Source: Henriciella sp. (GTDB lineage: Bacteria > Pseudomonadota > Alphaproteobacteria > Caulobacterales > Hyphomonadaceae). Taken from it: DNA of 64,000 bases. Shown here piece after piece: positions 30,854-55,250 of the stretch. A model generated the notes under the pieces. The model was not told the origin of the DNA, did not search any database, and saw only the letters and a list, made by a program, of their open reading frames with translations. The stretch covers positions 1 through 64,000 of the forward strand of contig JASJAO010000006.1 of the NCBI GenBank assembly GCA_030066975.1, in the 5' to 3' direction. Every line of letters starts with the position of its first letter. The first letter of the stretch is position 1. A program made the position numbers and the translations under genes.

Positions 30854-31064
30854 CTGTCCTCACTCAGTAAAGTCTTTGCAAGGTTGAAGATAGAGCCTGG
30901 AGGAGGTCAACAGATTCCGATGCGTGACAGCGGCACGCTCTTGGATTGACTAGAGCGGGTTCAGTGGTGAGATCGATTGCTACAAATCCGTCAATTGCGC
31001 GGGCGGGCAAGAGTCACAGCTTCTGTGGGCTGTTCGCACGGTATTGATCCGGTATGCTTTGGTC

Positions 31065-32378
31065 ATGACAGCGTCACCCCTTTCCCAAGTCCTCAAAGGA
31101 CGATTGCTCACTTTTTCTGATCGCCCCCGGTCGGTCGATGATACCGAATCATATGCCTATTGGGCGCATGGGGCCCTGGCGATACAGGGCGGCAAGATTG
31201 TGTGGCGCGGGGACGCGGCAAAGCTTCCTCAGGTGTATCAGACCTGGCAGGTGATGGATCATCGCGACCATCTGATCTTGCCGGGGTTCATCGACACCCA
31301 CACGCACTTCCCGCAGATGGGCGTTATTGGATCATACGGGGCGCAGCTGCTGGATTGGTTGGAGACCTACACATACAAACAGGAAGCGCGGTTCGAAGAC
31401 ACGTTGTATTGCCAGACGGTCGCGAACGCGTTTCTGGATGAGTTAATCAACAATGGCGTCACAACCGCCGCGGTCTATGCCACCTCTCATCCTGGCTCGG
31501 CCCACGCGCTGTTCGAGGCCGCACACGCCCGGGACATGCGAATGATTGCAGGCAAAGTGCTGATGGATCGCGGCGCCCCGGACGCAGTCTGTGACACACC
31601 GCAACGCGCTTATGACGAAAGCAAATACCTGATTGACGCCTGGCACAATGAAGGGCGTTTATCCTATGCCATCACACCGCGTTTCGCGATCACATCTTCG
31701 CCCGCGCAGCTAGAACTGATGCAGGCTTTGGCGGCGGAAAATACCGGCTGCTACGTCCAGACACATCTGTCAGAAAATCAATTCGAAATTGACGAGACAC
31801 TCCGTCTCTATCCGGCCGCGAAAGACTATACTGGCGTCTATGAGGACTATGGCCTCTTGGGCCCGCGCTCTCTGTTGGGGCACTGTATCCACCTGTCAGA
31901 CCGCGAGCTTGGTGCCCTGAAAAATAGCGATTCGATAGCAGTCTTCTGTCCGTCCTCAAACCTGTTCCTCGGCAGTGGCCTGTTCGACTATAGCGGCATG
32001 ATTGAGGCCGACATTCGCGTCGGGTTCGGAACAGATGTGGGCGCTGGCACCAGCTACTCCATGCTGGCCACCGCCGCTGACGCCTACAAGATCTGCCAGT
32101 TGAAAGGCTATAGTCTCAACCCGTTTGAGAGCTATTTCGGCCTGACCCTCGGCAATGCCCGCGCGCTCTCGCTCGAAGGCAAGATCGGGACACTCGAGGT
32201 CGGAACAGAAGCTGACCTTTGCGTTCTCAATAGCCATGCAACATCAGCGATGCGTACGCGTATGGAAAGTGTGAACTCGTTGGCCGAAGAATTGTTCGTG
32301 CTGCAAACGCTCGGCGATGATCGCAGCATTGCCGAGACTTATGTCGGTGGTCGGGCCCGGAAAACCTCGGCGATCTAG
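31065..32378 (+). CDS. guaD: Guanine deaminase
   Basis: Converts guanine to xanthine and ammonia in the cytoplasm, feeding xanthine dehydrogenase. The 437-aa amidohydrolase shows the metal-binding HTHFPQ, the substrate-binding Q and W in GAQLLDWLETYTYKQE, THLSENQFEI, LLGHCIHL and FGTDVGAGTSYSM, all typical of GuaD. The frame opens at a TTG at 31044, but ATG at 31065 fits the family start better; neither has a strong ribosome site. Its stop overlaps the convergent LOG gene by 4 bases. Confidence 0.93.
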   Translation: MTASPLSQVLKGRLLTFSDRPRSVDDTESYAYWAHGALAIQGGKIVWRGDAAKLPQVYQTWQVMDHRDHLILPGFIDTHTHFPQMGVIGSYGAQLLDWLETYTYKQEARFEDTLYCQTVANAFLDELINNGVTTAAVYATSHPGSAHALFEAAHARDMRMIAGKVLMDRGAPDAVCDTPQRAYDESKYLIDAWHNEGRLSYAITPRFAITSSPAQLELMQALAAENTGCYVQTHLSENQFEIDETLRLYPAAKDYTGVYEDYGLLGPRSLLGHCIHLSDRELGALKNSDSIAVFCPSSNLFLGSGLFDYSGMIEADIRVGFGTDVGAGTSYSMLATAADAYKICQLKGYSLNPFESYFGLTLGNARALSLEGKIGTLEVGTEADLCVLNSHATSAMRTRMESVNSLAEELFVLQTLGDDRSIAETYVGGRARKTSAI

Positions 32379-37691: not shown

Positions 37692-39149
37692 ATGATCCGT
37701 TTTGTCCTTGACGGTGAAATACAGGAGCTCGTCGATGTGGACCCCACGCGCACGGTGCTGGAATGGTTGCGCGAAGACGAACACCGCGTCGGGACGAAAG
37801 AGGGCTGCGCGGAGGGCGATTGCGGCGCCTGTACGGCGGTTATTGGTGAACTGATTGAGGATCGGGTCCGGTACCGTGCGATCAATACCTGTATCTATTT
37901 CCTGCCCATGCTGCACGGCAAAGAGCTGGTGACGGTCGAATCCATTGGAGTGCCCGACCAGTTGCACCCGGTACAACAGGCCATGGCAGACGGCGATGGG
38001 ACCCAGTGCGGCTTCTGCACGCCGGGTTTCGTGATGTCGCTGTTTGCGAAGTATCAGGGCTCCGATCCCGCTTTGTCGGAGGATGTCGATAATGTCCTTG
38101 CTGGAAACCTCTGCCGGTGTACCGGCTATCGCCCCATTCAGGAAGCCGCGGCAAGCGTGGAGCCTGACGCCGGTTTGCAGGCGCGGTTTGGCGGACCGAA
38201 GACCCGGGACCTGTTGAAATCTTTGCACATAAGTGAGGCACAATCGGCGGAGTATCAGGATCCACACTTCGAAACCGCGCGCCGCTGGCACAGGCCGACA
38301 AGTGAAGAGGAGCTAACCGACCTGCTGAAGCGCTACCCCTCTGCCACGCTGGTGGCTGGCGCAACCGACGTCGGCTTGTGGGTGACCAAACAGCATCGGT
38401 TGATTGAAACCGCGATTGTGCTGAATGGCGTCACCTCGCTCAACCGGATTGAAGAAACAGAGCAGGGCCTCCGAATTGGCGCCATGGTGACCTATTCAGA
38501 TGCGATCGCGCATTTGGCGCGGCTGCATCCCGACTTTGGCGAACTGGTTCGCCGGATCGGCTCTACGCAGGTTCGAAACAGTGGAACGATTGGCGGCAAT
38601 ATCGCAAATGGCTCCCCGATCGGTGACACACCGCCGCCTCTGATCGTCTTAAACGCGCAGCTGGAGCTTGCTTCCTCAGAAGGCGCACGGACCATCCCGC
38701 TCGAAGACTTCTTTATCGACTACGGCAAACAAGATCTTCGAACTGGCGAATATGTTCGCTCTGTCCTGATCCCACCGCTGGCGGACGGGTTGGTGTTTCG
38801 AACCTACAAGATCTCCAAACGCTTCAATCAGGATATTTCCGCGCTTTGCGGTGCGTTTGCCTTCGAGATTGAGGACGGTGTGGTGACTTCCGCTCGTGTC
38901 GCCTTTGGCGGCATGGCCGCCACCCCCAAGCGCGCGGCTGCGTGCGAAGCGGCGCTCACCGGACAGCCCTGGACAGAAGCGACCATTGATGAAGCCGCGA
39001 ACGCCATGGCCCGGGACTACGCGCCGATTACAGACATGCGTGCCTCTGCGCCCTACCGGATGAAGACCGCCCAAAATCTCTTGCGCAAAGCCTTCCTTGA
39101 AACCGGCGCGCCGAACCGCACGCGCATTCTCGAAGGAGTTCGCCTCTGA
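37692..39149 (+). CDS. xdhA: Xanthine dehydrogenase small subunit (FeS/FAD)
   Basis: A 485-aa subunit that passes electrons from the molybdenum site to NAD. The N-terminal [2Fe-2S] domain has GCAEGDCGACTAVIGEL, the second cluster domain has QCGFCTPGFVMS and NLCRCTGYRPI, and the FAD-binding domain begins near residue 190 (ATLVAGATDVGLW, RNSGTIGGNIANGSPIGD). It oxidises hypoxanthine and xanthine to urate together with XdhB, whose start overlaps this stop (TGATG). No xdhC maturation gene is adjacent. Confidence 0.95.
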   Translation: MIRFVLDGEIQELVDVDPTRTVLEWLREDEHRVGTKEGCAEGDCGACTAVIGELIEDRVRYRAINTCIYFLPMLHGKELVTVESIGVPDQLHPVQQAMADGDGTQCGFCTPGFVMSLFAKYQGSDPALSEDVDNVLAGNLCRCTGYRPIQEAAASVEPDAGLQARFGGPKTRDLLKSLHISEAQSAEYQDPHFETARRWHRPTSEEELTDLLKRYPSATLVAGATDVGLWVTKQHRLIETAIVLNGVTSLNRIEETEQGLRIGAMVTYSDAIAHLARLHPDFGELVRRIGSTQVRNSGTIGGNIANGSPIGDTPPPLIVLNAQLELASSEGARTIPLEDFFIDYGKQDLRTGEYVRSVLIPPLADGLVFRTYKISKRFNQDISALCGAFAFEIEDGVVTSARVAFGGMAATPKRAAACEAALTGQPWTEATIDEAANAMARDYAPITDMRASAPYRMKTAQNLLRKAFLETGAPNRTRILEGVRL

Positions 39150-41485
39150 TGTTGAAACGACTTCAACGCGGCGCGCCCGGAAACGCAGTCGAGGGGGATG
39201 TTCACACCCCGCGTCGGCATGATAGCGCGCATCTGCATGTCTCTGGCCAGGCGCGCTATACAGACGATCTGCCAGAACCGGCTGACTGTCTGCAAATCTA
39301 TGTGGCGATGTCGGAACGCGCCCATGCCACGATCGACAAGATGGACCTGTCTGCGGTGCGAACCGCCCCCGGTGTGGTCTGCGTGATCAGTGCCGAAGAC
39401 ATTCCCGGCGCGAATGATATCGGCCCGGTGGTGCAGGATGATCCGGTCTTTGCCGAGACGAAGGTCTTCTATCACGGCCAGCCTCTGTTCGCTGTTGCGG
39501 CGACCTCTCGCAAGGCCGCGCGACTGGCAGCGATGCGGGCCGAGCTTGAGTATACCGACGCGCCCGCCTTGCTCGACATCGCAGCTGCGCGCGCCGCTGA
39601 GGATATCATCGAAACGCCCCAGACCATGCGGCTCGGGAACGCGGCCGAGGCCATCGCTTCTGCCCCGACAGTTCTCAACGGTGCGCTCGAAATGGGCGGG
39701 CAGGACCATTTCTATCTTGAGGGACAGATCGCGCTTTCCGTGCCGGGTGAAGATGGCGCGCTACTCATCTATTCCTCCACGCAAAACCCGACCGAAGCTC
39801 AGCACCTGATCGCGCATTTGCTTCACAAGCCGAGCTCAGCGGTCACTGTGGAAGTGCGCCGCATGGGCGGCGCGTTTGGCGGCAAGGAAACCCAATCTAC
39901 TCTGGTTGCCGCGATCGCCGCGCTGGTCACGCACAAGACGGGACAGGCGGCGAAGCTGCGCCTTGATCGCGATGACGATATGATCATGACCGGCAAACGC
40001 CATGACTTTCAGATCCGGTATCAAGCCGGCTTTGACGCGCAAGGCTTGTTGCATGGCGTGAGTTTTGATCTCGCCTCGCGGTGTGGCTTTTCCACGGACC
40101 TGTCGCTCGCGATCAATGACCGGGCCATGTTCCATAGCGACAATTGCTATTTCCTGCGCAACGCTGAAATCGTGTCGCATCGCCTGCGCACTCACACAGT
40201 GTCGAACACCGCCTTTCGCGGGTTTGGTGGACCACAGGGCATGCTCGGGATTGAGCGCTTGATGGATCAGGTGGCGTTTGAAGTTGGCCGTGATCCGCTC
40301 GACGTGCGGCTCGACAATCTCTACGGCGGCGAGGGCAAAAACCTCACGCCTTATCATCAGGTGGTTGAGGACAATGTTGCGGGTGAACTCATCGAAACGC
40401 TGGCAGCGTCTTCGAATTATCGCGCGAGACGCGCCGAGATTGAAGCGAGCAATAAGCAGCCCGGCGTCATTAAGCGCGGGATTGCGCTCACACCGGTCAA
40501 GTTCGGCATCTCGTTTACGGCAAAACACCTCAACCAGGCCGGTGCCCTGATCCATGTCTACGCCGACGGGACAATCCAACTCAATCACGGTGGGACGGAG
40601 ATGGGCCAGGGCCTGATGGTCAAGGTGGCTCAGGTCGTCGCGCATGAATTCCAGGTCGATATCGATCAGATCAAGATCATGGCGACCTCCACAGAGAAAG
40701 TGCCGAACACGTCCGCAACGGCGGCCTCATCGGGGTCGGATCTCAATGGCATGGCCGCTCAAGTTGCTGCGCGAAAAATCAAAGACCGACTGATCGGCTT
40801 CCTCGCAGAACGTGACGGCGTGCCGATTGAAAGTGTGGTGTTTGAGAACAATCGCATTCGCGCAGGCGATACGGACTATTCCTTTCAGGAGGTGGTAAAG
40901 GCGGCCTATTTTGGCCGGATATCGCTTTCGGCCACGGGCTATTATCGCACACCCAAGATCCACTATGATCGCGACAAGCATCGCGGCCGCCCCTTCTTCT
41001 ATTTCGCTTACGGCGCAGCGGTTTCCGAAGTCGAGATAGATACGCTGACTGGCGAAAACCGCGTCACGCGGACCGACATCCTGCATGATGTCGGGCGTTC
41101 CCTGAACCCGGCCATCGATATGGGGCAGATTGAGGGCGGCTTCATTCAGGGCATGGGCTGGCTGACCATGGAAGAGCTTGTCTATGACGCGGAGGGGCGT
41201 CTGCGCACCCATGCACCCTCCACTTACAAAATTCCGACCAGCGCCGATCGGCCGGGTGTGTTCAATGTTGAGATCTGGGACAAGGGGAGCAACCAGGAAC
41301 ACACGATCCACCATTCCAAAGCCGTTGGCGAACCGCCTTTCATGCTGGCGATCTCGGTCTTCTCAGCGCTGACTCACGCTGTCTCAGGCGCAGCCGATCA
41401 CAAAGTGTTTCCGCAATTGGACGCCCCCGCGACGCCGGAGCGCATCCTGATGGCGGTGGATGCTGTCCGCGCTGAACTGGATTGA
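39149..41485 (+). CDS. xdhB: Xanthine dehydrogenase molybdopterin-binding subunit
   Basis: A 778-aa catalytic subunit carrying the molybdenum cofactor. Landmarks: SGQARYTDDLPEP, EMGGQDHFYLEGQIAL with the cofactor-contact region, RRMGGAFGGKETQS, NTAFRGFGGPQGM with the substrate-orienting Arg, NHGGTEMGQGL, and GEPPFMLAISVFSAL with the catalytic Glu. It is translationally coupled to xdhA. Length and motifs are those of bacterial XdhB. Substrates are hypoxanthine and xanthine; the urate produced feeds the operon at 44527-52106. Confidence 0.95.
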   Translation: MLKRLQRGAPGNAVEGDVHTPRRHDSAHLHVSGQARYTDDLPEPADCLQIYVAMSERAHATIDKMDLSAVRTAPGVVCVISAEDIPGANDIGPVVQDDPVFAETKVFYHGQPLFAVAATSRKAARLAAMRAELEYTDAPALLDIAAARAAEDIIETPQTMRLGNAAEAIASAPTVLNGALEMGGQDHFYLEGQIALSVPGEDGALLIYSSTQNPTEAQHLIAHLLHKPSSAVTVEVRRMGGAFGGKETQSTLVAAIAALVTHKTGQAAKLRLDRDDDMIMTGKRHDFQIRYQAGFDAQGLLHGVSFDLASRCGFSTDLSLAINDRAMFHSDNCYFLRNAEIVSHRLRTHTVSNTAFRGFGGPQGMLGIERLMDQVAFEVGRDPLDVRLDNLYGGEGKNLTPYHQVVEDNVAGELIETLAASSNYRARRAEIEASNKQPGVIKRGIALTPVKFGISFTAKHLNQAGALIHVYADGTIQLNHGGTEMGQGLMVKVAQVVAHEFQVDIDQIKIMATSTEKVPNTSATAASSGSDLNGMAAQVAARKIKDRLIGFLAERDGVPIESVVFENNRIRAGDTDYSFQEVVKAAYFGRISLSATGYYRTPKIHYDRDKHRGRPFFYFAYGAAVSEVEIDTLTGENRVTRTDILHDVGRSLNPAIDMGQIEGGFIQGMGWLTMEELVYDAEGRLRTHAPSTYKIPTSADRPGVFNVEIWDKGSNQEHTIHHSKAVGEPPFMLAISVFSALTHAVSGAADHKVFPQLDAPATPERILMAVDAVRAELD

Positions 41486-43201: not shown

Positions 43202-43312
43202 GCGTCTGCCCAATCTGTCAGCGTTTGTCGAATTTCTGATCTGTTTTTTGTTTCTGAGTGGACGAATTTTTGCATCATTATAATCTGATGTCTTAGGTGG
43301 TTGAGGTTGTGC
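43202..43312. promoter_or_regulatory. Divergent symporter/lysR promoter region
   Basis: Contains a TATAAT at 43279-43284 in the plus direction, about 30 bases before the LysR start. The matching -35 is not clear. LysR proteins normally bind such divergent regions. Confidence 0.4.
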
Positions 43313-44245
43313 ATGGCGCTTATCAAAACGGGTCTTCTCTACTTCAATCAGGCGGTTCGCGACGGATCGATCCGAAAGGCTGCAGACCGATTGCAGGTCG
43401 CGTCCTCTGCTGTCAATCGCCAACTCCTGCAACTTGAGAAGGAATTGGGGATCGAATTATTCGAACGCCTGCCGCGCGGTATCCGGCCGACGGCCGCGGG
43501 TGAGGCGCTGCTTGCACGAATTCGTCAGTGGACCCAGGATGTTGAGGGCCTGCGTCAGGATATTGCGCGTCTGAAAGGCGGTGTGCGCGGGACCATTCAT
43601 ATTGCTGCAGCGGAAAGCATCACGACGGAAATCCTGCCGAAATGCATGGCCGAGTTGCAGGTTCAGTATCCGCAGATCGATTTCAATCTGATCTCGGGCG
43701 ATAATTATTTCGTCAAATCCGCGCTTCTGGCGCGTGATGCTGACCTGGTTTGTGCGTTTGATGTGGTCGGCAATGCGCGCACCGAAACGGTGACATCGGT
43801 TAAGTCGCCGATCGGCGTTATCGTCCCGCCGGATCATCCGCTCGTCAGATCGAAACAGATCTCTTTGTCAGACTGCCTTGAATATCCGCTCATCGCGCCG
43901 AGCCGTAACTGGCTCAATCATTCCATTCTGAAAGACCTGATCGAGGATCGCGAATTGCCGTTTCAGATCGCCGCGCGGGTGGAGCGGATCGGCGTTTTGC
44001 GCAACCTCGTCAAATCGGGCCTCGGGATCGCTTTCATGTCACCGATTGGTCTCAGCCAGGACATCTATGACAAGAAGCTGGTTTGGCTCCCCCTCGCAGA
44101 CGACACGATCAAGCCGACAACCGTCTCGCTCTTGATCCCCAAGGGCCGCGTTCTTGCGGACTATATTGTCGCCCTGATCGATCAGCTGAAATCGGAATTG
44201 GAAACGGAGATCACGATTGGGCGAGCGAATAATTCGATCGCTTAG
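43313..44245 (+). CDS. LysR-family transcriptional regulator
   Basis: A 310-aa regulator. The N-terminal winged helix (YFNQAVRDGSIRKAADRLQVASSAVNRQLLQLEKELGIELFERLPRG in overview) is followed by a substrate-binding domain (GTIHIAAAESITTEILPKCMAEL, VPPDHPLVRSKQISLSDCLEYPLI, GLGIAFMSPIGL). The ATG at 43313 fits the family better than the TTG at 43301. It lies between a divergent SBF transporter and the ureide operon, so it probably regulates one or both, with a purine-derived effector as the obvious candidate. Confidence 0.9.
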   Translation: MALIKTGLLYFNQAVRDGSIRKAADRLQVASSAVNRQLLQLEKELGIELFERLPRGIRPTAAGEALLARIRQWTQDVEGLRQDIARLKGGVRGTIHIAAAESITTEILPKCMAELQVQYPQIDFNLISGDNYFVKSALLARDADLVCAFDVVGNARTETVTSVKSPIGVIVPPDHPLVRSKQISLSDCLEYPLIAPSRNWLNHSILKDLIEDRELPFQIAARVERIGVLRNLVKSGLGIAFMSPIGLSQDIYDKKLVWLPLADDTIKPTTVSLLIPKGRVLADYIVALIDQLKSELETEITIGRANNSIA

Positions 44246-44338: not shown

Positions 44339-44526
44339 TTGCATCTTGGCGTTGCGGCTTGTGACAACCGATGCCAATAAGCGATCGGTCTCGTTGGCGA
44401 CTAAAGAGGTTCTATGGCCCAGCCTTTATTAAGGATTCGGCATCAGTTTGCGAGTTGTACAGTTCGGGTGATCCGATGGTCGGGTGTCACCCGCAGGCTT
44501 TATCCTGCGACAGAATCAGAGGGCAT

Positions 44527-46113
44527 ATGAGGCAAACGTCGGCACCGAAACAGGGCATCGTCACCAGCCCGCACTTTCTGGCCAGTCGGGCCGGATTGAG
44601 CGTTTTGAAAGACGGCGGCAATGCTGTCGAAGCCGCTGTCACGGTCGCGGCGACGCTGGCTGTTGTTTATCCGCACATGACCGGGATTGGCGGCGACAGT
44701 TTCTGGCTGGTGCGCTCACCGGCGGGCGAGATTTTTTGCGTCGATGCCTGTGGAGCGGCTGCGGAGGCCGCTGATCTGGACCTCTATGCCAGCGCGGGCT
44801 TGAAGCACATTCCGTTTCGCGGGCCACTGGCGGCGAACACGGTGGCGGGCACCATTTCTGGCTGGGAGCAGGTCTTGCGGCGTGCCGGCGGCTCGCTTTC
44901 ACTTGCGCGTCTGTTGCGGGATGCGATCCAACTCGCCAGGGACGGTGTGCCGGTGACCAAGAGCGGGGCCAGTGTCGCGGCAGGCAAAGACGGCGAGCTT
45001 GCGGGTTTTTCCGGCTATGCCGCGACGTTTCGGCCTGATCAGCGCCCGCTGCAGGAAGGCGATATCCTGCGCCAGCCCAAGCTTGCGGAGACATTGGAGC
45101 GGCTGATCGCGAACGGTCTGTCAGACTATTATACCGGGGAGATCGCGGCTGATATCGCGTCAGATCTGGCCGAGATTGGCAGCCCCGTTTCGGCGGCTGA
45201 TCTTGCCGCGCACAAAGCGCAAGAGTCGACGCCATTAAGCGTCAGGGCGTTCGGGGCCGAGCTTTACAATTTTGCGCCGCCGACACAGGGCTTTGCGTCG
45301 CTGTTGATCCTCGCCTTGTTTGAGCGTCTCAAGGTCTCTCAGGGTGAGGGCTTTGAGCATGTTCATGGCCTGGTCGAGGCGACGAAGCAGGCTTTTGCCA
45401 CGTACAAACAGATCGAACTCGGTGACCCGTCCTTGATGCTGCGCGATGCGCAGGAGGCGCTGAATGATACGGGCCTGATCGACGATCTAGTCGCTGATAT
45501 TGATCCGGCCAAAGCCCGGATCTGGCCGGAGCCGACACAGGGCGGGGATACAACCTGGTTTGGGGCGATGGATGCGGCGGGCTGGAGCGTCAGCGCGATC
45601 CAGTCGACCTATTTCGAGTTCGGATCGGGGATCGTGCTGCCAAAGACGGGCATTACCTGGCAGAACCGCGGGGCAAGTTTTGTACTGGCGGATAGCGGCT
45701 GGAACGCGCTGAAGCCCGGGCGCAAGCCGTTTCATACGCTCAACCCGGCCATGGCGCTGTTCGATGATGGCCGGACGATGGTCTACGGCACGATGGGCGG
45801 TGAGGGTCAACCGCAGACGCAGGCCGCGATTTTCACCCGCTATGCCGCCTATGGCATGGATTTGCAGGCTGCGGTTTCGGCCCCGCGCTGGCTGCTTGGC
45901 CGCACCTGGGGAGAGACCAGCACCAGTCTGAAATTGGAAAACCGGTTTGATCCAGCGCTGATCGACGCTTTGAAAGAAGCCGGACACGATGTGGAGATCC
46001 TGCCAGACTTCTCCGAGACGATGGGACATGCTGGCGCTCTGGTAAGACATCCCGATGGCGGTTTTATCGGCGCGAGTGACCCCCGTAGCGATGGGGAGGC
46101 GAGTGCATGGTAG
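44527..46113 (+). CDS. Gamma-glutamyltransferase-family protein, HpxW-like oxamate amidohydrolase
   Basis: A 528-aa Ntn-hydrolase of the gamma-glutamyltransferase family. The body shows GIVTSPHFLASRAGLSVLKDGGNAVEAAV, GGDSFWLV, GGDTTWFGAMDAAGWSVSAIQSTYFEFGSG with the Thr expected at the cleavage and nucleophile site, and GGEGQPQTQAAIFTRY. In Klebsiella the hpx locus contains a family member (HpxW) acting on oxamate, and this gene lies in a comparable operon with hpxZ, so that function is preferred over glutathione breakdown. ATG 44527 was chosen; the upstream frame from 44371 is not family-like. It has no signal peptide, unlike periplasmic Ggt. Its 3' end overlaps the next gene by 7 bases. Confidence 0.8.
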   Translation: MRQTSAPKQGIVTSPHFLASRAGLSVLKDGGNAVEAAVTVAATLAVVYPHMTGIGGDSFWLVRSPAGEIFCVDACGAAAEAADLDLYASAGLKHIPFRGPLAANTVAGTISGWEQVLRRAGGSLSLARLLRDAIQLARDGVPVTKSGASVAAGKDGELAGFSGYAATFRPDQRPLQEGDILRQPKLAETLERLIANGLSDYYTGEIAADIASDLAEIGSPVSAADLAAHKAQESTPLSVRAFGAELYNFAPPTQGFASLLILALFERLKVSQGEGFEHVHGLVEATKQAFATYKQIELGDPSLMLRDAQEALNDTGLIDDLVADIDPAKARIWPEPTQGGDTTWFGAMDAAGWSVSAIQSTYFEFGSGIVLPKTGITWQNRGASFVLADSGWNALKPGRKPFHTLNPAMALFDDGRTMVYGTMGGEGQPQTQAAIFTRYAAYGMDLQAAVSAPRWLLGRTWGETSTSLKLENRFDPALIDALKEAGHDVEILPDFSETMGHAGALVRHPDGGFIGASDPRSDGEASAW

Positions 46114-47381
46114 AGGTGCTTTCCAAAATCTCCGGCGCGCGTGTGGTCGAGCGGTGCGACCGCCTTGGTGTGCAGCCGTTCAGTGACATCAAGACCGGTC
46201 TGTTTCGCGCCTATCTGACCCCGGCGCACGCGGCGACGATCAACACAATGGTCAGCTGGATGAGTGAGGCGGGCATGTCGACCCGGCTCGACGCAGCGGC
46301 CAATCTGATCGGGCGCTATGAGGGCAATCGGCCAAATGCACCGGCGCTGATCATCGGGTCGCATGTCGACAGCGTGTTCAATGCCGGGCGCTATGATGGC
46401 CCGCTTGGGGTGATGCTGGGGATTGAGTGCGTTGAGGCGCTGCATGAACAAGGACGGCGTCTGCCTTTCGCGATTGAAGTGGTGGCCTTTGGCGACGAGG
46501 AAGGCTCGCGCTTTCCGATCTCGATGATCTGTTCGCGCGCCATGGCGGGCACGCTGACCGAACAGGATCTGGCGGTTGAGGACAGTGCCGGGCGTACGCC
46601 GCGCGAAGTGCTGCAAGTGTTCCGCGAGTGGATGTATCGACCCATGTCCAACATTGATCCGATGACAGCCGCCCGCGAACCAAGAGACGTTCTGGCCTAT
46701 CTCGAAACCCATATTGAGCAGGGCCCGGTCCTGGAAGCCGAAGGGCTCTCGGTCGGGGCGGTGACCGGAATAGCGGCACAAAACCGGTTCGACATTGTCG
46801 TCAAAGGCATGGCCGCGCATGCTGGGACCACGACCATGCAATTGCGGCGCGATGCCATGGCAGGCGCGGCCGAGATGATCATGGCGATTGAAACCATTGC
46901 CAATGAAATGGGCGGCGACCTGGTCGCTACGGTGGGCCGGATTGAGCTTTCGCCGGGCTCCACAAATGTCATCGCAAAAGAGGTGTCCTTCTCGCTCGAT
47001 GTGCGGTCCGGCGGCATGAACCACCGTGATACCGCAGCGGCGGCAATAAGCGAGGAAATGCACAAGATCGCCGTTCGCAGAGGCCTTAAACTTGAACTGA
47101 CGAAGTTGCAGGATCTTGCCAGCTCGCCCTGTGACAAGGAGCTGACGGACCTTCTGGAAACCGCCATGGAGCGGGCTGGACACCCGCGTCGCGCGCTGGT
47201 CAGCGGCGCAGGACACGATGCGATGGTGATGTCTGCGCTTTGTCCGACCGCTATGTTATTTGTCCGATGTGCAGGCGGGATCAGCCATAATCCAGCCGAA
47301 CAAGTCTCGATTCCCGACACCCAGGCGGCGTTGGATGTCATGCTTGAATTCATCGACCTGTTGGAGGCCCGAGAAACATGA
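46107..47381 (+). CDS. Allantoate amidohydrolase (M20 Zn-dependent hydrolase)
   Basis: A 424-aa M20/Zn-dependent hydrolase converting allantoate to ureidoglycine, CO2 and ammonia (AllC/HpxK group). Metal-site motifs: GSHVDSVFNAGRYDGPLGVMLGIE (His and Asp), AFGDEEGSRFPISMICSR with the EE pair, LETHIEQGPVLEAEGL with the His, and SGAGHDAMVMS with the C-terminal His; the small domain has AHAGTTTMQLRRDAM. Related carbamoylases share these motifs, but context settles the role. It overlaps both neighbours. Confidence 0.9.
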   Translation: MVEVLSKISGARVVERCDRLGVQPFSDIKTGLFRAYLTPAHAATINTMVSWMSEAGMSTRLDAAANLIGRYEGNRPNAPALIIGSHVDSVFNAGRYDGPLGVMLGIECVEALHEQGRRLPFAIEVVAFGDEEGSRFPISMICSRAMAGTLTEQDLAVEDSAGRTPREVLQVFREWMYRPMSNIDPMTAAREPRDVLAYLETHIEQGPVLEAEGLSVGAVTGIAAQNRFDIVVKGMAAHAGTTTMQLRRDAMAGAAEMIMAIETIANEMGGDLVATVGRIELSPGSTNVIAKEVSFSLDVRSGGMNHRDTAAAAISEEMHKIAVRRGLKLELTKLQDLASSPCDKELTDLLETAMERAGHPRRALVSGAGHDAMVMSALCPTAMLFVRCAGGISHNPAEQVSIPDTQAALDVMLEFIDLLEARET

Positions 47382-48604
47382 CCCGACCGTTCCGGCAGAT
47401 CGATCCGCCTCAGCGCCTGCTCATGGGCCCGGGCCCGGTCAACGCTCATCCGCGTGTCTTGCGCGCCATGTCAGCTGATTTGCTGGGCCAGTACGATCCG
47501 GAATTCACCAACTACATGACCGAAGTCATGGGCCTGTATCGCCCGATTTTCGGGACGGAGAATGAGTGGACATTTCTGATCGATGGTACGTCGCGCGCCG
47601 GTATTGAAGCGGCGCTCATCTCACTGGCCGCGCCGGGTGACACCGTCCTTGTGGTCAATTTTGGCCGGTTCGGTTTGCTGTTGAAAGAGATCTTCGATCG
47701 GATTGGCGCAAAAGTGGAAACTGTTGATGCGCCCTGGGGCGAGATCGTGCCGCTTGAGCAGATTGCCGCTGCGATTGAACGCTATGAACCAAAAGTCGTC
47801 GCCAGCGTGCATGGTGACACGTCCACCACTATGGCGCAGCCGCTGGACGGTTTGGGTGAGCTGTGTCGGCAGGCGGGGGCGTATTCCTATGCCGATGTAA
47901 CGGCAACGATTAGCGGCATGGAGATCGCGGCTGATCGCTGGGGGATAGATGTGGTCACAGGCGGCTTGCAGAAATGTCTTGGCGGACCGTCGGGCTCTGC
48001 GCCGATCACCATCTCGGACCGCGCGGCCGAGCATATTTTTTCTCGCCGTCATACCGAGCTCGGCATTCAGCGCGATGACCTCGTGCAGGGCGGGGGGCAG
48101 CGGATCGGGTCGAACTATTTCGATCTCGCCATGATCATGGACTATTGGTCCGAAAAACGCCTCAACCATCATACCGAAGCCACGACCATGCTTTATGGCG
48201 CGCGCGAGTGTGCCTGCGTGGCTTTGGAAGAGGGCCTTGAGGCGCGCTATGAACGCCACGCCAAGGCCGGGGCGGCTATGACCGCAGGCCTGCGCGCCAT
48301 GGGGCTGACCATCTTTACCAAAGATCAGAACCGCATGACCAATGTCACCGGCGTCTACATTCCTGATGCCGTCGATGGTGAGCAGGTCCGCACCCGGATG
48401 CGCGAAGATTTCGAGATCGAGATCGGCACCGCTTTCGGCCCGCTCCAGGGCAAGATCTGGCGCATCGGGGCCATGGGTTACAATGCGATGAAGCATAAAG
48501 TCCTGCTGACACTTGGCGCGCTCGAAGCGGTGCTGCGCAGCGAGGGCATGACCGTACCCGCAGGCGATGCGGTCGAGGCCGCGCTGGAGGTCTATCGCGG
48601 ATGA
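47378..48604 (+). CDS. pucG: Ureidoglycine-glyoxylate aminotransferase (PucG-like)
   Basis: A 408-aa PLP-dependent class V aminotransferase. It moves the amino group of (S)-ureidoglycine to glyoxylate or a similar acceptor, giving oxalurate and glycine. It has LLMGPGPVNAHPRVLRAM, GTSRAGIEAALISLA, VHGDTSTTMAQPL, SYADVTATISGMEI, and the PLP lysine in VVTGGLQKCLGGPSG. Alanine-glyoxylate transaminases are close relatives; the coupled position after allantoate amidohydrolase and hpxZ (oxalurate) supports the ureidoglycine enzyme. The start is ATGA with the previous stop. Confidence 0.9.
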   Translation: MTRPFRQIDPPQRLLMGPGPVNAHPRVLRAMSADLLGQYDPEFTNYMTEVMGLYRPIFGTENEWTFLIDGTSRAGIEAALISLAAPGDTVLVVNFGRFGLLLKEIFDRIGAKVETVDAPWGEIVPLEQIAAAIERYEPKVVASVHGDTSTTMAQPLDGLGELCRQAGAYSYADVTATISGMEIAADRWGIDVVTGGLQKCLGGPSGSAPITISDRAAEHIFSRRHTELGIQRDDLVQGGGQRIGSNYFDLAMIMDYWSEKRLNHHTEATTMLYGARECACVALEEGLEARYERHAKAGAAMTAGLRAMGLTIFTKDQNRMTNVTGVYIPDAVDGEQVRTRMREDFEIEIGTAFGPLQGKIWRIGAMGYNAMKHKVLLTLGALEAVLRSEGMTVPAGDAVEAALEVYRG

Positions 48605-49485
48605 GCCGGGATCTGGTTGGATATGGCGCAACGCCGCCTGCTGCGAACTGGCCCGGCGGCGCGCGCACAGCCGTGCAGTTCGTGGTCAATTATGAAGAAG
48701 GCGCAGAGAATTCTGTCCTCAACGGCGATGCGGGTTCAGAGGCCTTTCTGTCAGAAATGGTCGGGGCGGCCAGTCATACGGGCGCGCGGGCCATGGCGAT
48801 GGAAAGCCTGTATGAATACGGTTCGCGTGCGGGCTTTTGGCGGCTCTACCGTCTGTTCACATCGCGCAACATTCCCGTCACCGTGTTTGGTGTCGCTAAG
48901 GCGATGGAAATGAACCCGAAAGCGGTTGAGGCCATGCTCAAAGCCGACTGGGAGATTGCCAGCCACGGCCTGCGTTGGATCGACTACCAGACCGTCCCGG
49001 AAGCGGTTGAGAAAGCCCATATAGAAGAAGCCATTTCATTGCACCGCGCCCTGACCGGTCGCCGCCCGCTTGGCTGGTATCAGGGCCGCACCAGCCCCAA
49101 CACCGCGCGGCTGATCGCAGAGGAGGGCGGCTTTCTCTATGACGCTGACAGCTATGCCGACGATGTGCCCTATTATGATCGACAGCATGGGCGCGCGCAG
49201 CTGATCGTGCCGTACACGCTCGACGTCAATGACATGAAATTCGTGGCCTATAATGGCTTTGCCGAAGGTGAGGCTTTCTTTCGGTATCTGCGCGATACGT
49301 TTGACATGTTGCACAGTGAAGGCGGGCGGATGATGTCTGTCGGTCTGCACGGACGCATCGCTGGGCGTCCGGCACGCGCGAACGCCCTGTCACGATTTCT
49401 CGATCACATCCTTGCCTCAGAGGACGTTTGGATCACCCGCCGTATCGATATTGCGAACCACTGGCTAAAGGAGCACCCTGCATGA
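48601..49485 (+). CDS. puuE: Allantoinase PuuE (polysaccharide-deacetylase-type)
   Basis: A 294-aa metal-independent allantoinase opening allantoin to allantoate. It matches the PuuE family: RDLVGYGATPPAANWPGGARTAVQFVVNYEEGAENSVLNGD in overview, ESLYEYGSRAGFWRLYRLF, ASHGLRWIDYQ, GWYQGRTSPNTARLIAEEGGFLYDADSYADDVPY and SVGLHGRIAGRPARANAL. It is distinct from the AllB amidohydrolase. Coupled to its neighbours by ATGA overlaps. Confidence 0.95.
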   Translation: MSRDLVGYGATPPAANWPGGARTAVQFVVNYEEGAENSVLNGDAGSEAFLSEMVGAASHTGARAMAMESLYEYGSRAGFWRLYRLFTSRNIPVTVFGVAKAMEMNPKAVEAMLKADWEIASHGLRWIDYQTVPEAVEKAHIEEAISLHRALTGRRPLGWYQGRTSPNTARLIAEEGGFLYDADSYADDVPYYDRQHGRAQLIVPYTLDVNDMKFVAYNGFAEGEAFFRYLRDTFDMLHSEGGRMMSVGLHGRIAGRPARANALSRFLDHILASEDVWITRRIDIANHWLKEHPA

Positions 49486-49862
49486 AGATCAACGACCCCA
49501 CTGTCATTGCCGAAGTCACCGCGGCGTTTGAAAGCTATGAAAAAGCGCTGATGGGCGATGATCTGGACGCGATGGCCAACCTGTTTCGCCATGCGCCCGA
49601 GACGGTGCGGTATGGCGTGGGTGAGTGTCTGTACGGCTATGAAGAGATCGCGGCCTTCCGAAAGGGGCGCGGCGGGTCACCTCAGCGCAAACTCGGCAAA
49701 GTCGCGATCAGCGCGTATGGGGACAGCATGGCCACGGCAAATGCGGAGTTCTTCCGTGAAAACACCACCGTCCGGGGCCGCCAAAGCCAGACCTGGGTCA
49801 AGTTCGAGGACGGCTGGAAAGTGGTGTCGGCGCATGTGTCGCTGGAGAAGGATGTCTCGTGA
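49482..49862 (+). CDS. hpxZ: Oxalurate catabolism protein HpxZ
   Basis: A 126-aa SnoaL/NTF2-like (DUF3225) protein: NDPTVIAEVTAAFESYEKALMGDDLDAM, TVRYGVGECLYGYEEIAAFRKGR, FFRENTTVRGRQSQTWVKFEDGWKVVSAHVS. HpxZ in Klebsiella belongs to oxalurate breakdown, though its exact reaction is not established. The frame extends upstream, but ATG 49482 overlaps the puuE stop as ATGA and has AAGGAG nearby. The hpxXY partners of Klebsiella are not in this operon. Confidence 0.9.
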   Translation: MKINDPTVIAEVTAAFESYEKALMGDDLDAMANLFRHAPETVRYGVGECLYGYEEIAAFRKGRGGSPQRKLGKVAISAYGDSMATANAEFFRENTTVRGRQSQTWVKFEDGWKVVSAHVSLEKDVS

Positions 49863-50362
49863 CGCTTGAAGACATCAACGCCATGCCTGCCCCTGCCTTT
49901 GTTGAGACCTTTGGCGGTTTGTATGAGCACAGTCCGTGGATCGCGGCGGCCGCGGCTGCGCTGCGACCGTTTGATGGTCGGGCGGACATGCTGGCGAAGA
50001 TGAATTCGGTTGTGGAAGAGGCATCAGAAGGGCAGAAGCTTGCCCTATTGCGGGCTCACCCTGAATTGGCTGGAAAAGCTGCGATTGATGGCACGCTGAC
50101 CGAGGCCTCGAACGAAGAGCAGGCCTCTGCCGGTCTCGACCGTATGCATGAACACGAATACGCGGCATTGACGCAAATGAACGCGGCCTACAGTGAACGG
50201 TTCGGGTTTCCGTTTATCATCTGCGTGAAACTGACGACCAAAGCGGGTATTCTCGAGGCCCTCGCGCAACGCTTGAAACATACGCCGGAACAGGAATTCG
50301 AAACGGCGCTGGAAGAAGTTGGCAAAATCGTCCAACTTCGATTGGAAGGGATGCTGTCATGA
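49859..50362 (+). CDS. uraD: OHCU decarboxylase
   Basis: A 167-aa enzyme that decarboxylates 2-oxo-4-hydroxy-4-carboxy-5-ureidoimidazoline to S-allantoin. Signatures: TLEDINAMPAPAFVETFGGLYEHSPWIA, LLRAHPELAGKAAIDG with the catalytic His, TEASNEEQASAGLD with the Glu, and YSERFGFPFIICVKLTTKAGILEAL. The start is GTG overlapping the hpxZ stop as GTGA. Confidence 0.95.
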   Translation: MTLEDINAMPAPAFVETFGGLYEHSPWIAAAAAALRPFDGRADMLAKMNSVVEEASEGQKLALLRAHPELAGKAAIDGTLTEASNEEQASAGLDRMHEHEYAALTQMNAAYSERFGFPFIICVKLTTKAGILEALAQRLKHTPEQEFETALEEVGKIVQLRLEGMLS

Positions 50363-51786
50363 TGGATCTTGCGACTTATACAGAGGTCGTTCGCAACGAT
50401 CTCGATACGATCGGCCTCGGGGCGTCGACCTGGGTCCGTCCGCGAAACGGCGTCTACGATGTTGTCATTGTCGGCGGCGGTCAAAGCGGTATGGGCGCGG
50501 CCTTCGGCCTGATGCGAGAGCGCGTGACAAATCTGCTCATCGTCGACGAGAATGACAAAGGCGACGAAGGGCCCTGGGGCACCTATGCGCGGATGATCAC
50601 GCTGCGCACACCCAAACACCTGACCTCCATCGATCTCGGTGTGCCGTCGCTCACGTTTCGGGCCTATTGGGTGGCCCAGCATGGGCAGGACAGCTGGGAT
50701 GCGATTGATAAAATCCCCCGCGAAGACTGGCTCGACTATCTGAAATGGTATCGCGACGTGCTCGATCTGCCGATTGAGAACAATACGAAACTCAAACGGG
50801 TCGAGCCGGAGGCAAAGGGCCTGTATCGCCTTCACCTCAAGGGCCGTGATGGCGACCGCGAAGTACTCGCCCGCAAGGTTGTCCTCGCCACCGGCATCCA
50901 GGGCGGCGGGGAGTGGCACACGCCTGATTTCATCAAACAGTCGCTGCCCAAATCACGCTACGCGCATACGTCGGAAGCGATCGACTATGCCGGGATGAAA
51001 GGTAAAAAGATCGCCATTCTCGGCAACGGGGCGTCCTCGTTCGACAATGCCCAGCATGCCTTGAAACTGGGTGTGGGCAGTGTCGACGTGTTCGTGCGGC
51101 GTAAAGTGATCCCAAGTGTCAATCCGATCCGGTTCATGGAACAAACGGGTCTCGTGCCGCGCTTTGCTGCGATGGATGACGCGTCGAAGTACGAGATCAT
51201 CACCTCTTTCATCAAACGCTCACAGCCCCCGACCAATGATACATTCACGCGATCTGCGGCCTGGCCGAACTTCTCGCTCCATCTCGGTGCGCCGTGGGAC
51301 AGTGTGCGGGAGACCGAAGACGGCGTCGAAGTCGTGACACCGCAAGGGACATTCACGTTTGACTTTCTTGTTCTCTCGACCGGCCTGGTCACCGACCATG
51401 CCCTTCGCCCGGAGCTTGCTTCGGTATCCGACAAGATCGCCCTCTGGAAAGACCGGTATCAGGCTCCGGACGAGGCCCGCCTGCCACTGCTGGATGCCCA
51501 TCCCTATCTTGGCGCCGGGTTCGAGTTTCTGCCGAAAACGGCCGAAGACGCCGATGCCCTCTATGGGCTCTACGCGTTCAACTACTCCGCGTTGGTCAAT
51601 TTTGGATTGTCGGCCGCGGCCCTGACCGGGCTCGGCTATGCCATTCCGAAACTGGCCAACAGTATCGCGAACCAATTGTTCCTCGATGATCAGGCCGAAT
51701 GGATGCAGGACTATCTCGCCTATAGCGAGCCTGAATTTGTCAGCGATTGGACGCCTGAAAGGGCAGAGAAAGTCCCGGCTGAATGA
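50359..51786 (+). CDS. FAD-dependent class-B-type monooxygenase, candidate urate hydroxylase
   Basis: A 475-aa flavoprotein with two Rossmann motifs: VVIVGGGQSGMGAAFGL (about residues 35-51) for FAD and IAILGNGASSFDNAQHAL (about residues 218-235) for NAD(P)H. The second is preceded by YAHTSEAIDYAG, resembling the flavin-monooxygenase linker. It is not like HpxO, which is a single-Rossmann hydroxylase, and no UaZ or PuuD urate oxidase is present in the window. Its stop overlaps hiuH, which acts on 5-hydroxyisourate, so the gene lies exactly where a urate-oxidising enzyme is needed. This role is inference from gene order and chemistry. The start follows uraD with an ATGA overlap. Confidence 0.75.
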   Translation: MMDLATYTEVVRNDLDTIGLGASTWVRPRNGVYDVVIVGGGQSGMGAAFGLMRERVTNLLIVDENDKGDEGPWGTYARMITLRTPKHLTSIDLGVPSLTFRAYWVAQHGQDSWDAIDKIPREDWLDYLKWYRDVLDLPIENNTKLKRVEPEAKGLYRLHLKGRDGDREVLARKVVLATGIQGGGEWHTPDFIKQSLPKSRYAHTSEAIDYAGMKGKKIAILGNGASSFDNAQHALKLGVGSVDVFVRRKVIPSVNPIRFMEQTGLVPRFAAMDDASKYEIITSFIKRSQPPTNDTFTRSAAWPNFSLHLGAPWDSVRETEDGVEVVTPQGTFTFDFLVLSTGLVTDHALRPELASVSDKIALWKDRYQAPDEARLPLLDAHPYLGAGFEFLPKTAEDADALYGLYAFNYSALVNFGLSAAALTGLGYAIPKLANSIANQLFLDDQAEWMQDYLAYSEPEFVSDWTPERAEKVPAE

Positions 51787-52106
51787 GTATCTCAACCCAC
51801 GTTCTTGATTTGAAAACCGGCCTACCCGCGCAGGGTATTTCGCTGGCGGTCTATTTCGAAGACCAGTCGCTCGGAGCCTACACGACCGATGCGGATGGGC
51901 GATGCGCCGATCTGCTTGCAGGTCACGCCATCGAAGCAGGCGATTACAAGTTCGTGTTTGATGTTCAGGCCTATTTCGCCGCCACTGGCACCGAGACCTT
52001 TTACAAGTCCATCCCGATCGAGTTCACCATTACCGATCCAACCCGGCATCACCATGTGCCGCTGCTGCTCTCACCGTTCGGATACTCCACCTATCGTGGC
52101 AGCTAA
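51783..52106 (+). CDS. hiuH: 5-Hydroxyisourate hydrolase (transthyretin-related)
   Basis: A 107-aa enzyme opening 5-hydroxyisourate to OHCU. It has the family ends: STHVLDLKTGLPAQGISL at the N-terminus and HHHVPLLLSPFGYSTYRGS at the C-terminus, which carries the YRGS signature. An active-site Arg may lie in the central part. It is the last gene of the ureide operon and shares ATGA with the FAD monooxygenase gene. The presence of hiuH and uraD shows that urate is oxidised to HIU by some enzyme. Confidence 0.95.
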   Translation: MSISTHVLDLKTGLPAQGISLAVYFEDQSLGAYTTDADGRCADLLAGHAIEAGDYKFVFDVQAYFAATGTETFYKSIPIEFTITDPTRHHHVPLLLSPFGYSTYRGS

Positions 52107-52490
52107 GCGACCCCGCCCCCCGCACAATTGACTCGTGTCGGCGCCTGTCGCATGAGGAGCCCAGATGGTGCCTTCGTAACAGAAGGCTAAGAGGGAACCC
52201 GGTGCCAATCCGGGACTGTACCCGCAACTGTGAGCCAGGAGCTGACGGCCACCGATGTCACTGAGGCAACTGCCTTGGGAAGACGGCCAGACGCCTTGAT
52301 CGGCAAGTCAGGAAACCTGCCATCGCGTCGTTCGCCTGCCGGCCGGGAATAGCCAATGGCATGCGGGATCGCCGCCGAACAGGGTGGCTCCTTTGAAACG
52401 ACTCCAACCGGTTGCTCAACACGAGCAGCCTTGAGCGCGTTCTCTCGCGACGGCGACAGCCAAAGCAGAGAACAACAAAGGAGAACTGCG
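52107..52490. other. leader region of the B12 uptake operon
   Basis: Holds the cobalamin riboswitch (52166-52328) and about 160 bases of further leader ending in AAGGAG before the BtuB-like start at 52491. Confidence 0.6.
52166..52328 (+). ncRNA. Cobalamin riboswitch
   Basis: The conserved elements appear in order: GGTGCC (52168-52173), TAAGAGGGAACCCGGTG, ATCCGGGACTGTACCCGCA with CAACTGTGAG, a distal stem, GGGAAGACGG, and the closing AAGTCAGGAAACCTGCC. This is the B12-box aptamer that represses downstream genes when adenosylcobalamin is bound. It precedes a complete B12-type uptake operon. Confidence 0.93.
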
Positions 52491-54404
52491 ATGAAAAGAT
52501 CGCTGATATTAAGTTGTGCGGCTCTGGCTCTGGCGGGTGGTGCACTTGGACAAACAGATGACGGCGCTGACGAAGCCGACGAGGCACCCGAGTACGTTTA
52601 CTTTGTCCAGGACCGGCTGTCAGTCGTTGAAGTGGCGGGCCTGCGCCCGGTCAACGAGACCGACCTCACCACCAGCGTCACTGTGATCGACGCCTCTGAC
52701 CTTGCCGTGCGAGACAATCCTTATCTCGCCGACCAGTTGCGCGCCGTGCCGGGTCTTGGGGTTTCGCGCTCTGGCGCTGCGGGCGGGCTGACGCAGGTCC
52801 GGATTCGCGGGGCAGAGGCTAACCACACGCTTGTTTTGATCGACGGGATCGAAGTGTCTGACCCAACCACAGGCGAAACAGATTTCGGTCTGTTTTCAGG
52901 GCTGTATCCGGGCAGAGTGGAAGTGGCGCGTGGCGAGCAATCGGCCCTTTACGGGTCCGACGCGATTGGCGGCGTGATTAATGTCGTCACCGCACCGAGC
53001 GAAGGCTTTCGTGGTCTCGTGGAAGGCGGCAGCTTTTCGACGTTGCGCCTCGACGCCGGTTATGGCTGGGATTTTGGTATCGGCGATCTGTCCCTTACTG
53101 TTTCTGATGTGAGCTCTGATGGCGTCGATACGTCCGGGCTCGACGGCGAGAAAGACGGTTATCAAAACACATCCGGGACCGTTTCCGGCGGCTTTGGGTT
53201 TGGGCAAGACTGGGAAGCGCGGGGGCTGCTGCGCTATGGCTATGGCGAGGTCGATACTGATCCTGATCTCGACTTTGACGGCCGCCTCGACGATGCCGAC
53301 CGCGTCACCGAAAGCGAACAATGGACGCTCGGGGGTTCTGTCTTTGGCGAAGCTTTCGGTCTCGATCACCTTTTTCGGGCCAGCTATAATCAAGTCGAGC
53401 GTGAGAACTTTGGCGATGGCGCCTCGCTCAACGTCTCGGACGCGGATCGGACCAAGCTCGCTTACAGTCCCTCTGTTGAGGTTGAGACGCGCGAGGCCTT
53501 CTTCACTGTGTCCGGCCTGATCGATTGGGAGCAGGAGGACTATTCAGCCCGCGATACAGAGTTTGGCGGCTTCACCAATCAGGATCAGACGTTTGAAACG
53601 CTCGGCCTGGCTGGCGAAGTTCGCGCGCAGATCGGCGATCTCGTGCTCAACGCGTCGGCGCGTCATGACGACAATGACGGGGCGTTCGATGATGCGAGCA
53701 CCTGGCGTCTCGGCGGGGCCTACAGTTTCGCCCAAGGCACCAAACTCCGCGCGAGCACTGGAACCGGGGTCAAGAACCCGACCTTCACCGAATTGTTTGG
53801 CTTCTTCCCCGGAAGCTTTGTCGGCAATCCGGACTTGAAGCCGGAGGAATCAACCAGTTGGGAAATCGGTTTGGATCAGGACCTTGGCCCGCTGGAACTG
53901 TCGGTGACCTATTTCGAGGCAGACCTCACCGACGAAATCTTCACCCAGTTCAACGCCGATTTCACCTCCACACCCGCCAACCGGGCTGGCGATAGCGAGC
54001 GCTCCGGCATTGAGGCCGCGGTGGAATGGCAGGCGAGTGACAGCCTCAGCCTCCGCGGTGCTGCCTCAAACATCTCATCAGAAAATGATAGTGGCGCAGA
54101 CGAAATCCGTGTCCCCGAATGGACTGGCAGTCTTGCCCTGAGCTGGCGATCTTTGACGAAAAGAGGCCTGCGCGCCGGCCTTGCGCTCGATTATGTCGGC
54201 GAGCAGTTGGACACTGACTTTGCCACGTTCAGCACAGTCGAACTCGATCCCTACACGCTGGTCTCCGCCACACTGGACTATCCGGTGACAGAGCGGATCT
54301 CGCTCACGTTTCGCGGCGAGAACCTGCTGGATGAAACGGTGACGGACGTGGTCGGTTTTAACGGCCCCGGTGCCGGGCTCTTTATCGGTCTAAGGGTGAG
54401 GTAG
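52491..54404 (+). CDS. BtuB-like TonB-dependent vitamin B12 receptor
   Basis: A 637-aa outer-membrane receptor. The ATG at 52491, preceded by AAAGGAGAA, starts a signal peptide (KRSLILSCAALALAGGALG). The frame open from 52356 lies within the riboswitch leader. The plug shows LTTSVTVIDASDLAVRDNPYLADQLRAVPGLGVSRSGAAGG in overview, RIRGAEANHTLVLIDGIEVSDP and GRVEVARGEQSALYGSDAIGGVINVVT, typical of BtuB, and the barrel ends ...FIGLRVR. B12 specificity rests on the riboswitch and the downstream BtuFCD-like genes. Confidence 0.92.
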   Translation: MKRSLILSCAALALAGGALGQTDDGADEADEAPEYVYFVQDRLSVVEVAGLRPVNETDLTTSVTVIDASDLAVRDNPYLADQLRAVPGLGVSRSGAAGGLTQVRIRGAEANHTLVLIDGIEVSDPTTGETDFGLFSGLYPGRVEVARGEQSALYGSDAIGGVINVVTAPSEGFRGLVEGGSFSTLRLDAGYGWDFGIGDLSLTVSDVSSDGVDTSGLDGEKDGYQNTSGTVSGGFGFGQDWEARGLLRYGYGEVDTDPDLDFDGRLDDADRVTESEQWTLGGSVFGEAFGLDHLFRASYNQVERENFGDGASLNVSDADRTKLAYSPSVEVETREAFFTVSGLIDWEQEDYSARDTEFGGFTNQDQTFETLGLAGEVRAQIGDLVLNASARHDDNDGAFDDASTWRLGGAYSFAQGTKLRASTGTGVKNPTFTELFGFFPGSFVGNPDLKPEESTSWEIGLDQDLGPLELSVTYFEADLTDEIFTQFNADFTSTPANRAGDSERSGIEAAVEWQASDSLSLRGAASNISSENDSGADEIRVPEWTGSLALSWRSLTKRGLRAGLALDYVGEQLDTDFATFSTVELDPYTLVSATLDYPVTERISLTFRGENLLDETVTDVVGFNGPGAGLFIGLRVR

Positions 54405-55250
54405 ATGATCCGGCTGGCATTTCTCATCGGGTGGTTTTGTCTCGTCGCCGGGTGCGGTGCTCCTGGGCCCGCGCCCGTGTCGCAGACCGATCGGCCGATG
54501 CGAATCGTCAGCCTGGATTATTGCGCGGATCAGTTTGTGCTCAAACTGGCCGATGCCGATCAGATCCTCGCCGTGTCACCTGACGCGGTCTCGGACTTTT
54601 CCTATATGCGCGAGGCGGCGGCGGGTGTGCCAACTGTGCGCCCGGTCGCCGAAGATGTTCTTGTCCTGCGCCCGGATCTGATCGTGCGCTCCTATGGCGG
54701 CGGGCCAAACGCGGCTGGCTTCTTTGAGCAAGCCGGTATCCCGGTTCTGCAAGTCGGTTGGGCGACCGCGATTGATGGCGAGTCGGCGGGGGCCATCCCT
54801 TCACTCATCGCGGATGCGGCGTCCGGTCTGGGTCAAGCCGAACGCGGCGCGGCGCTGGTGGCGGACTATCGCACGCGTCTTGCCGCTATCCAGAAGCGGG
54901 AGGCCGGCGAAACAGCGCTCTACATGACTGCCGCTGGCGCAACCACCGGGGCAGGTTCGCTTGTGCATGACATGCTCATGGCTTCGGGTTTGGAGAACTA
55001 CCAGACCGAGCCGGGCTGGCGGTCACTCCCCTTGGAACGGCTTGCCTATGAGCAACCCGACATGGTGGCCGCCGCCTTTTTCGGCAATCGGTCGACCAGT
55101 CAGAACACCTGGACGTCCGCCCGGCATCCGCTCGCCGAGGCCCAATTGACAGAGGACAAGCTGGTCCCGTTGGATGGGTCCTGGACCACGTGCGGGGGCT
55201 GGTTTGTGATGGATGCGATTGAGGCCTTGGTGGCGGGGCCGACGCCATGA
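54405..55250 (+). CDS. BtuF-like ABC transporter substrate-binding lipoprotein
   Basis: A 281-aa periplasmic binding protein. A short signal peptide ends in lipobox LVAGC. Family features: MRIVSLDYCADQFVLKLADADQILAVSPDAV in overview, ADVLVLRPDLIV-type segment, and GGGPNAAGFFEQAGIPVLQVGWA. It delivers cobalamin to the permease. It begins directly after the receptor stop, with GGTGAGG in the receptor's last codons, and its stop overlaps the permease start. Confidence 0.88.
   Translation: MIRLAFLIGWFCLVAGCGAPGPAPVSQTDRPMRIVSLDYCADQFVLKLADADQILAVSPDAVSDFSYMREAAAGVPTVRPVAEDVLVLRPDLIVRSYGGGPNAAGFFEQAGIPVLQVGWATAIDGESAGAIPSLIADAASGLGQAERGAALVADYRTRLAAIQKREAGETALYMTAAGATTGAGSLVHDMLMASGLENYQTEPGWRSLPLERLAYEQPDMVAAAFFGNRSTSQNTWTSARHPLAEAQLTEDKLVPLDGSWTTCGGWFVMDAIEALVAGPTP

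Follow-up and report, generated by a model that had tools for sequence, protein, structure and literature searches.

A gene between uraD and hiuH in a Henriciella purine operon very probably encodes an HpyO-type urate hydroxylase

The window, by which we mean the whole 64,000-nucleotide stretch of a Henriciella contig that was analysed, carries the following purine catabolism genes and candidate partners:

31044..32378, + strand: guanine deaminase (TIGR02967, 533.9 bits against a cut-off of 375.4)
37692..39149, + strand: xdhA, xanthine dehydrogenase small subunit (TIGR02963, 612.2 bits against 467)
39149..41485, + strand: xdhB, xanthine dehydrogenase molybdopterin-binding subunit (TIGR02965, 1259.4 bits against 849.5)
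43301..44245, + strand: LysR-type regulator (LysR models, none above cut-off among the 25 matches listed)
44371..46113, + strand: gamma-glutamyltransferase-fold protein (G_glu_transpept, 407 bits; GGT equivalog, 335.4 bits, below its cut-off of 357.85)
46107..47381, + strand: allC-like allantoate amidohydrolase (NF006775, 579 bits against 479)
47378..48604, + strand: class V aminotransferase, PucG-like (Pfam Aminotran_5; no NCBIfam model above cut-off)
48601..49485, + strand: puuE, allantoinase (TIGR03212, 506.2 bits against 424.6)
49482..49862, + strand: hpxZ, oxalurate catabolism protein, AtzH-like (NF033625, 155.5 bits against 135)
49859..50362, + strand: uraD, OHCU decarboxylase, GTG start (TIGR03164, UHCUDC, 195.1 bits against 96.25; Pfam OHCU_decarbox)
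50359..51786, + strand: very probably an hpyO-type FAD/NAD(P)H urate hydroxylase gene (Pfam domains, orthologues in family f46, clade, predicted fold)
51783..52106, + strand: hiuH, 5-hydroxyisourate hydrolase (TIGR02962, 121.9 bits against 87.45; Pfam Transthyretin)

Enzymes of this set cover the route from guanine to urate and again from 5-hydroxyisourate to ureidoglycine, so that the urate step alone wants an enzyme. From its context, the aminotransferase is probably an (S)-ureidoglycine:glyoxylate aminotransferase, and the gamma-glutamyltransferase-fold gene, the first of the operon set, probably encodes an HpxW-like protein, HpxW being described in a passage of PMC5270733 as oxamate amidohydrolase. 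The LysR-type protein, of which there is a copy at 64% identity in the Henriciella cluster, is a possible regulator of the purine cluster. On the 3' side of hiuH (52356-56993), reading of the open reading frames indicates a TonB-dependent receptor and an iron/B12-type ABC set consisting of binding protein, permease and ATPase, genes that are apparently unrelated to the purine operon.

The reading frame at 50359-51786 starts with ATG, encodes a product of 475 residues and shares an ATGA overlap with uraD on one side and with hiuH on the other. Promoter-like sites (3 against a shuffle mean of 3.3) and terminator-like sites (7 against 7.9) showed no excess. The initial annotation had described just such a two-Rossmann flavoprotein, overlapping both neighbours, and had named xdhAB, uraD and hiuH as its partners: reading frame, Pfam domains and junctions agree with this description, and all of the named partners score above their curated NCBIfam cut-offs. 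Three Pfam domains exceed their cut-offs on the protein (NAD_binding_9 with 57.4 bits, Pyr_redox_3 with 55.6 and Lys_Orn_oxgnase with 42.0), and the flavin monooxygenase contains two dinucleotide-binding motifs, with glycine motifs near residues 39-44 and 222-226 kept across 17 aligned sequences. Among its best 25 of 36 NCBIfam matches none lies above cut-off, the best reaching 53.5 bits against a cut-off of 425, and the HpxO model NF033623 is not one of these 25.

The best PDB sequence matches, remote and partial, are the flavin monooxygenases 4c5o and 4a9w, which we take to be SmFMO, a bacterial FMO of Stenotrophomonas. A sequence search of the PDB recovered no solved structure from the HpyO-type clade, only such remote partial matches, and none of the 36 PDB matches to the protein's profile is labelled as HpxO or urate hydroxylase. 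A structure predicted from ten aligned sequences (mean pLDDT 84.0, pTM 0.83) has as its best Foldseek matches the ornithine hydroxylases PvdA and SidA, with a TM score for PvdA (3s5w_B) of 0.68 by query and 0.77 by target; sequence identity in the 50 fold matches listed is 14-17%. Going by this predicted fold, the window protein is a flavoprotein of the two-dinucleotide-domain, class B type. Class B monooxygenases typically attack nitrogen, sulphur or ketone carbons while holding NADP+, and those named here (PvdA, SidA, 4c5o/4a9w) resemble the predicted window protein in fold but differ from it in substrate. If a class B cycle did drive hydroxylation of urate at C5, the clade would constitute an unusual, carbon-hydroxylating kind of class B enzyme, a suggestion that we put forward tentatively and with some doubt.

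Does the genome encode any other enzyme for the urate step? A urate hydroxylase, HpyO, was reportedly characterised from Xanthomonas by Michiel et al. in 2012, whose work is reported to have included complementation of an hpxO deletion in Acinetobacter baylyi ADP1. A passage of PMC4562309 describes HpyO as a Xanthomonas urate oxidase that uses NAD(P)H and FAD and comes from a hydroxylase family distinct from HpxO, HpxO of Klebsiella as oxidising urate with FAD and NAD(P)H, PuuD as a cytochrome c enzyme integral to the membrane and Uox as a cofactor-less T-fold enzyme. HpxO is also mentioned for Acinetobacter in an excerpt of PMC10117892, and part of a table in PMC13210998 sets KEGG K22879, 'FAD-dependent urate hydroxylase [EC:1.14.13.113]', beside COG2072, a flavoprotein group. 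The Henriciella genome (3.57 Mb in 24 contigs, 99.98% complete) has no match at E <= 0.001 to either Uricase (PF01014, the T-fold of UaZ/Uox) or Urate_ox_N (PF06181, the membrane domain of PuuD); neither of these families, which elsewhere take this same pathway step, was found in it. The HpxO model NF033623 finds 12 places, none overlapping 50359-51786, and the best of them scores 202 bits against a cut-off of 500. This best gene matches the 3-hydroxybenzoate 6-monooxygenase model better (319.5 bits, also below that model's cut-off of 459) and is flanked, by reading of the open reading frames, by galactokinase-like and rpoH-like genes away from the purine operon. We therefore reject it as an HpxO, on grounds of its sub-threshold score and non-purine context.

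Searched across the genome, the HpxO, PuuD and UaZ profiles with which the initial annotation had proposed to compare the protein yield no match above cut-off. Its statement that the window has no UaZ, PuuD or HpxO-like protein extends outright to the genome for UaZ and PuuD, and for HpxO is qualified by the 12 sub-threshold places. Its view that the protein is not homologous to HpxO agrees with the failure of NF033623 to appear among the best 25 matches and with the lack of overlap between its 12 places and the gene. Judged by sequence and predicted fold, the window protein is an FAD/NAD(P)H-binding flavoprotein unrelated to HpxO, which would carry out the same reaction with the same cofactors in a different flavoprotein family. 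Nor does it have a close paralogue at home: its sole match in its own genome at E <= 0.001 is its own gene.

To place the protein among its relatives we built a maximum-likelihood tree of 55 proteins, and counted uraD and hiuH in the flanking DNA retrieved for each gene; these flanks differ in length, some being short, and the counts refer to what they contain. The window protein groups with Henriciella and Ponticaulis proteins (support 100/100). It also belongs to a subclade of 15 rows (98/91) that includes all seven full-length proteins from the family f46 discussed below and is nested in a clade of 21 rows (100/99). Both uraD and hiuH are found close to the gene in 19 of the 20 other members of this larger clade; for the exception, L016, just 1.8 kb was fetched on one side, and allC is adjacent. 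Among eight intermediate rows, three have both genes and one more has hiuH alone. The outer clade, consisting of L021-L023 and the 23 loci L053-L075 at 35-40% identity to the window protein, has neither gene in any of its 26 fetched neighbourhoods. There is thus a clear border between a urate-linked clade and outer paralogues without urate context.

Examination of homologue neighbourhoods, likewise proposed at the outset, bears on replacement too. We searched PF06181 in 20 genomes, 19 with a member of the hpyO-type family and one (G094) without, and found PuuD absent from 19 of them. Beside uraD and hiuH the gene takes the place of uox, hpxO or puuD, where the uox and hpxO searches covered the window's own genome. 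The sole PF06181 match is in G556, whose family comprises only two genomes; this genome has both an hpyO-type gene and a 186-residue open reading frame (L123, 1486-2046, - strand) that matches Urate_ox_N with 62.1 bits when its neighbours are included, against a domain of 295 positions, and that matches no NCBIfam model at E <= 1e-15.

The link to HpyO comes from a second set of genomes. In f46, a family of the class sample that we take to be gammaproteobacterial, nine of 89 sampled genomes match the window protein. Seven of these matches, from five genera, are full-length at 59-63% identity; the other two are weak and partial, and 82 of the 89 genomes have no full-length relative. We infer that f46 is Xanthomonadaceae from the RNA families sX13 and sX5: sX13 passes its gathering score in three of 350 genomes of the class sample, all of them in f46 (11 further genomes, outside f46, match below that score), and G752, one of the seven with a full-length relative and a 5.0-Mb single-contig genome, carries both sX5, labelled Xanthomonadaceae in Rfam, and sX11, labelled proteobacterial. 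G752 belongs to the genus g471, which is taken here as Xanthomonas. The best plasmid matches of one of its intergenic repeats are two Xanthomonas records among 18 matching records, with weaker matches in Rhizobium, Shinella and others; sX9 and sX12 gave nothing usable as markers for Xanthomonas. Two of the three sampled g471 genomes have the gene and G827 does not. All seven f46 loci share with the window the gene order PucG-like aminotransferase, puuE, hpxZ, uraD, the flavoprotein gene and hiuH, and allC is detected in six of them as well. One difference of arrangement is that xdhAB lies about 9 kb upstream in the window but directly after hiuH in G752.

Together these comparisons lead us to regard the gene at 50359-51786, with considerable assurance, as orthologous to hpyO of Xanthomonas, whose product is a urate hydroxylase (EC 1.14.13.113) that depends on FAD and NAD(P)H. 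With the f46 orthologues, rather than the X. campestris HpyO sequence itself, serving as the bridge, and with their family assigned as above, the gene very probably is of this kind. HpyO and the window protein are alike in being flavoproteins of the FAD/NAD(P)H type that are not related to HpxO and occur with uraD and hiuH; the host of the window differs from Xanthomonas in being an alphaproteobacterium, and the protein's closest kin in the tree are from Hyphomonadaceae (Henriciella, Ponticaulis). The initial annotation had spoken of a non-homologous urate hydroxylase. As regards function and lack of homology to HpxO this reading is well supported, because of the gene's position, the absence of another recognised urate oxidase, clade membership and conserved context. 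The enzyme is not new, however, since a urate hydroxylase of such a kind, without homology to HpxO, has already been published as HpyO, and we reject the idea of a new, unpublished one given that the gene groups in the tree with orthologues from presumed Xanthomonadaceae. A functional guess from gene order alone is thereby borne out: an enzyme of a kind already published very probably closes the gap in the ureide pathway, and an HpyO-type enzyme is, very probably, present in a further host.

The predicted reaction would begin with reduction of the protein's FAD by NAD(P)H, after which the reduced flavin would react with O2. The resulting flavin (hydro)peroxide would hydroxylate urate at C5, releasing water along with 5-hydroxyisourate. 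That product is converted to (S)-allantoin by HiuH and UraD; further handling of the nitrogen falls to PuuE, AllC, the PucG-like aminotransferase and the Hpx-type genes.

Might a flavoprotein sit in a urate operon in some other role, such as hydroxylation of a related purine or a ureide, with urate being oxidised by something else? The wider family lends this some plausibility: many of its members lack a urate link, as the 26 outer relatives illustrate, so other substrates probably exist within it, and the genome does contain the sub-threshold HpxO-like paralogues. Against it, uraD and hiuH accompany the clade itself almost throughout, UaZ and PuuD were both sought in the genome without a match, and the highest-scoring HpxO-like paralogue is located off the purine operon and matches another monooxygenase model better. 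We consider such a role improbable. We give even less credence, to the point of hardly any, to a urate hydroxylase from a family separate from HpyO that reached the same operon slot independently. This scenario draws on the fact that the family label of f46 derives from RNA families and that the comparison with X. campestris HpyO runs through the f46 proteins, but it would have to accommodate a shared gene order and identities of 59-63% in seven presumed Xanthomonadaceae genomes, two of them from g471 with single-contig chromosomes of 4.8-5.0 Mb, as well as support of 100/99 for the clade that joins the window protein to the f46 orthologues. Orthology to hpyO remains the reading that we prefer.

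Relatives of the HpyO-type protein are thinly spread. Within the window's phylum, 23 of 398 genomes match at E <= 1e-20, the window's own genome counted, as do three of 369 genomes of the presumed gammaproteobacterial class sample at E <= 1e-10. The distribution of the hpyO-type gene is patchy, because both of the further genomes sampled from the window's genus, and two more from its family, are without it. Among 72,556 plasmid records 336 match the protein, none at 60% identity or more.

The outer relatives occur in alpha- and gammaproteobacterial genomes and in Reyranella-type metagenome-assembled genomes (MAGs), with similar outer-type proteins on Rhizobium, Sinorhizobium, Caballeronia and Pantoea plasmids. 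With none of the 26 sampled near uraD or hiuH, we do not accept these proteins, at 35-40% identity, as urate hydroxylases. Part of PMC13210998 gives the KEGG K22879 'urate hydroxylase' label to a Caballeronia flavoprotein, and this may be an over-annotation if that protein falls in the outer clade. Outside the main clade, two loci from Candidatus Obscuribacterales MAGs (L019 and L020) encode proteins of 40-41% identity, with uraD and hiuH some 3.5 kb away, and could represent another urate-linked lineage that branches more deeply.

A compact urate cassette is found on a Bacillota plasmid, p5 of Priestia filamentosa (CP136440.1, 6752-10434; locus L078), where a nucleobase symporter, uraD, uraH and an hpyO-type gene, its product 55% identical to the window protein, stand together; a Tn3-family transposase lies some 4 kb beyond the cassette. 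Horizontal transfer or a contaminated assembly are both possible sources of this arrangement. The clade member on the Priestia plasmid is annotated merely as 'NAD(P)/FAD-dependent oxidoreductase'.
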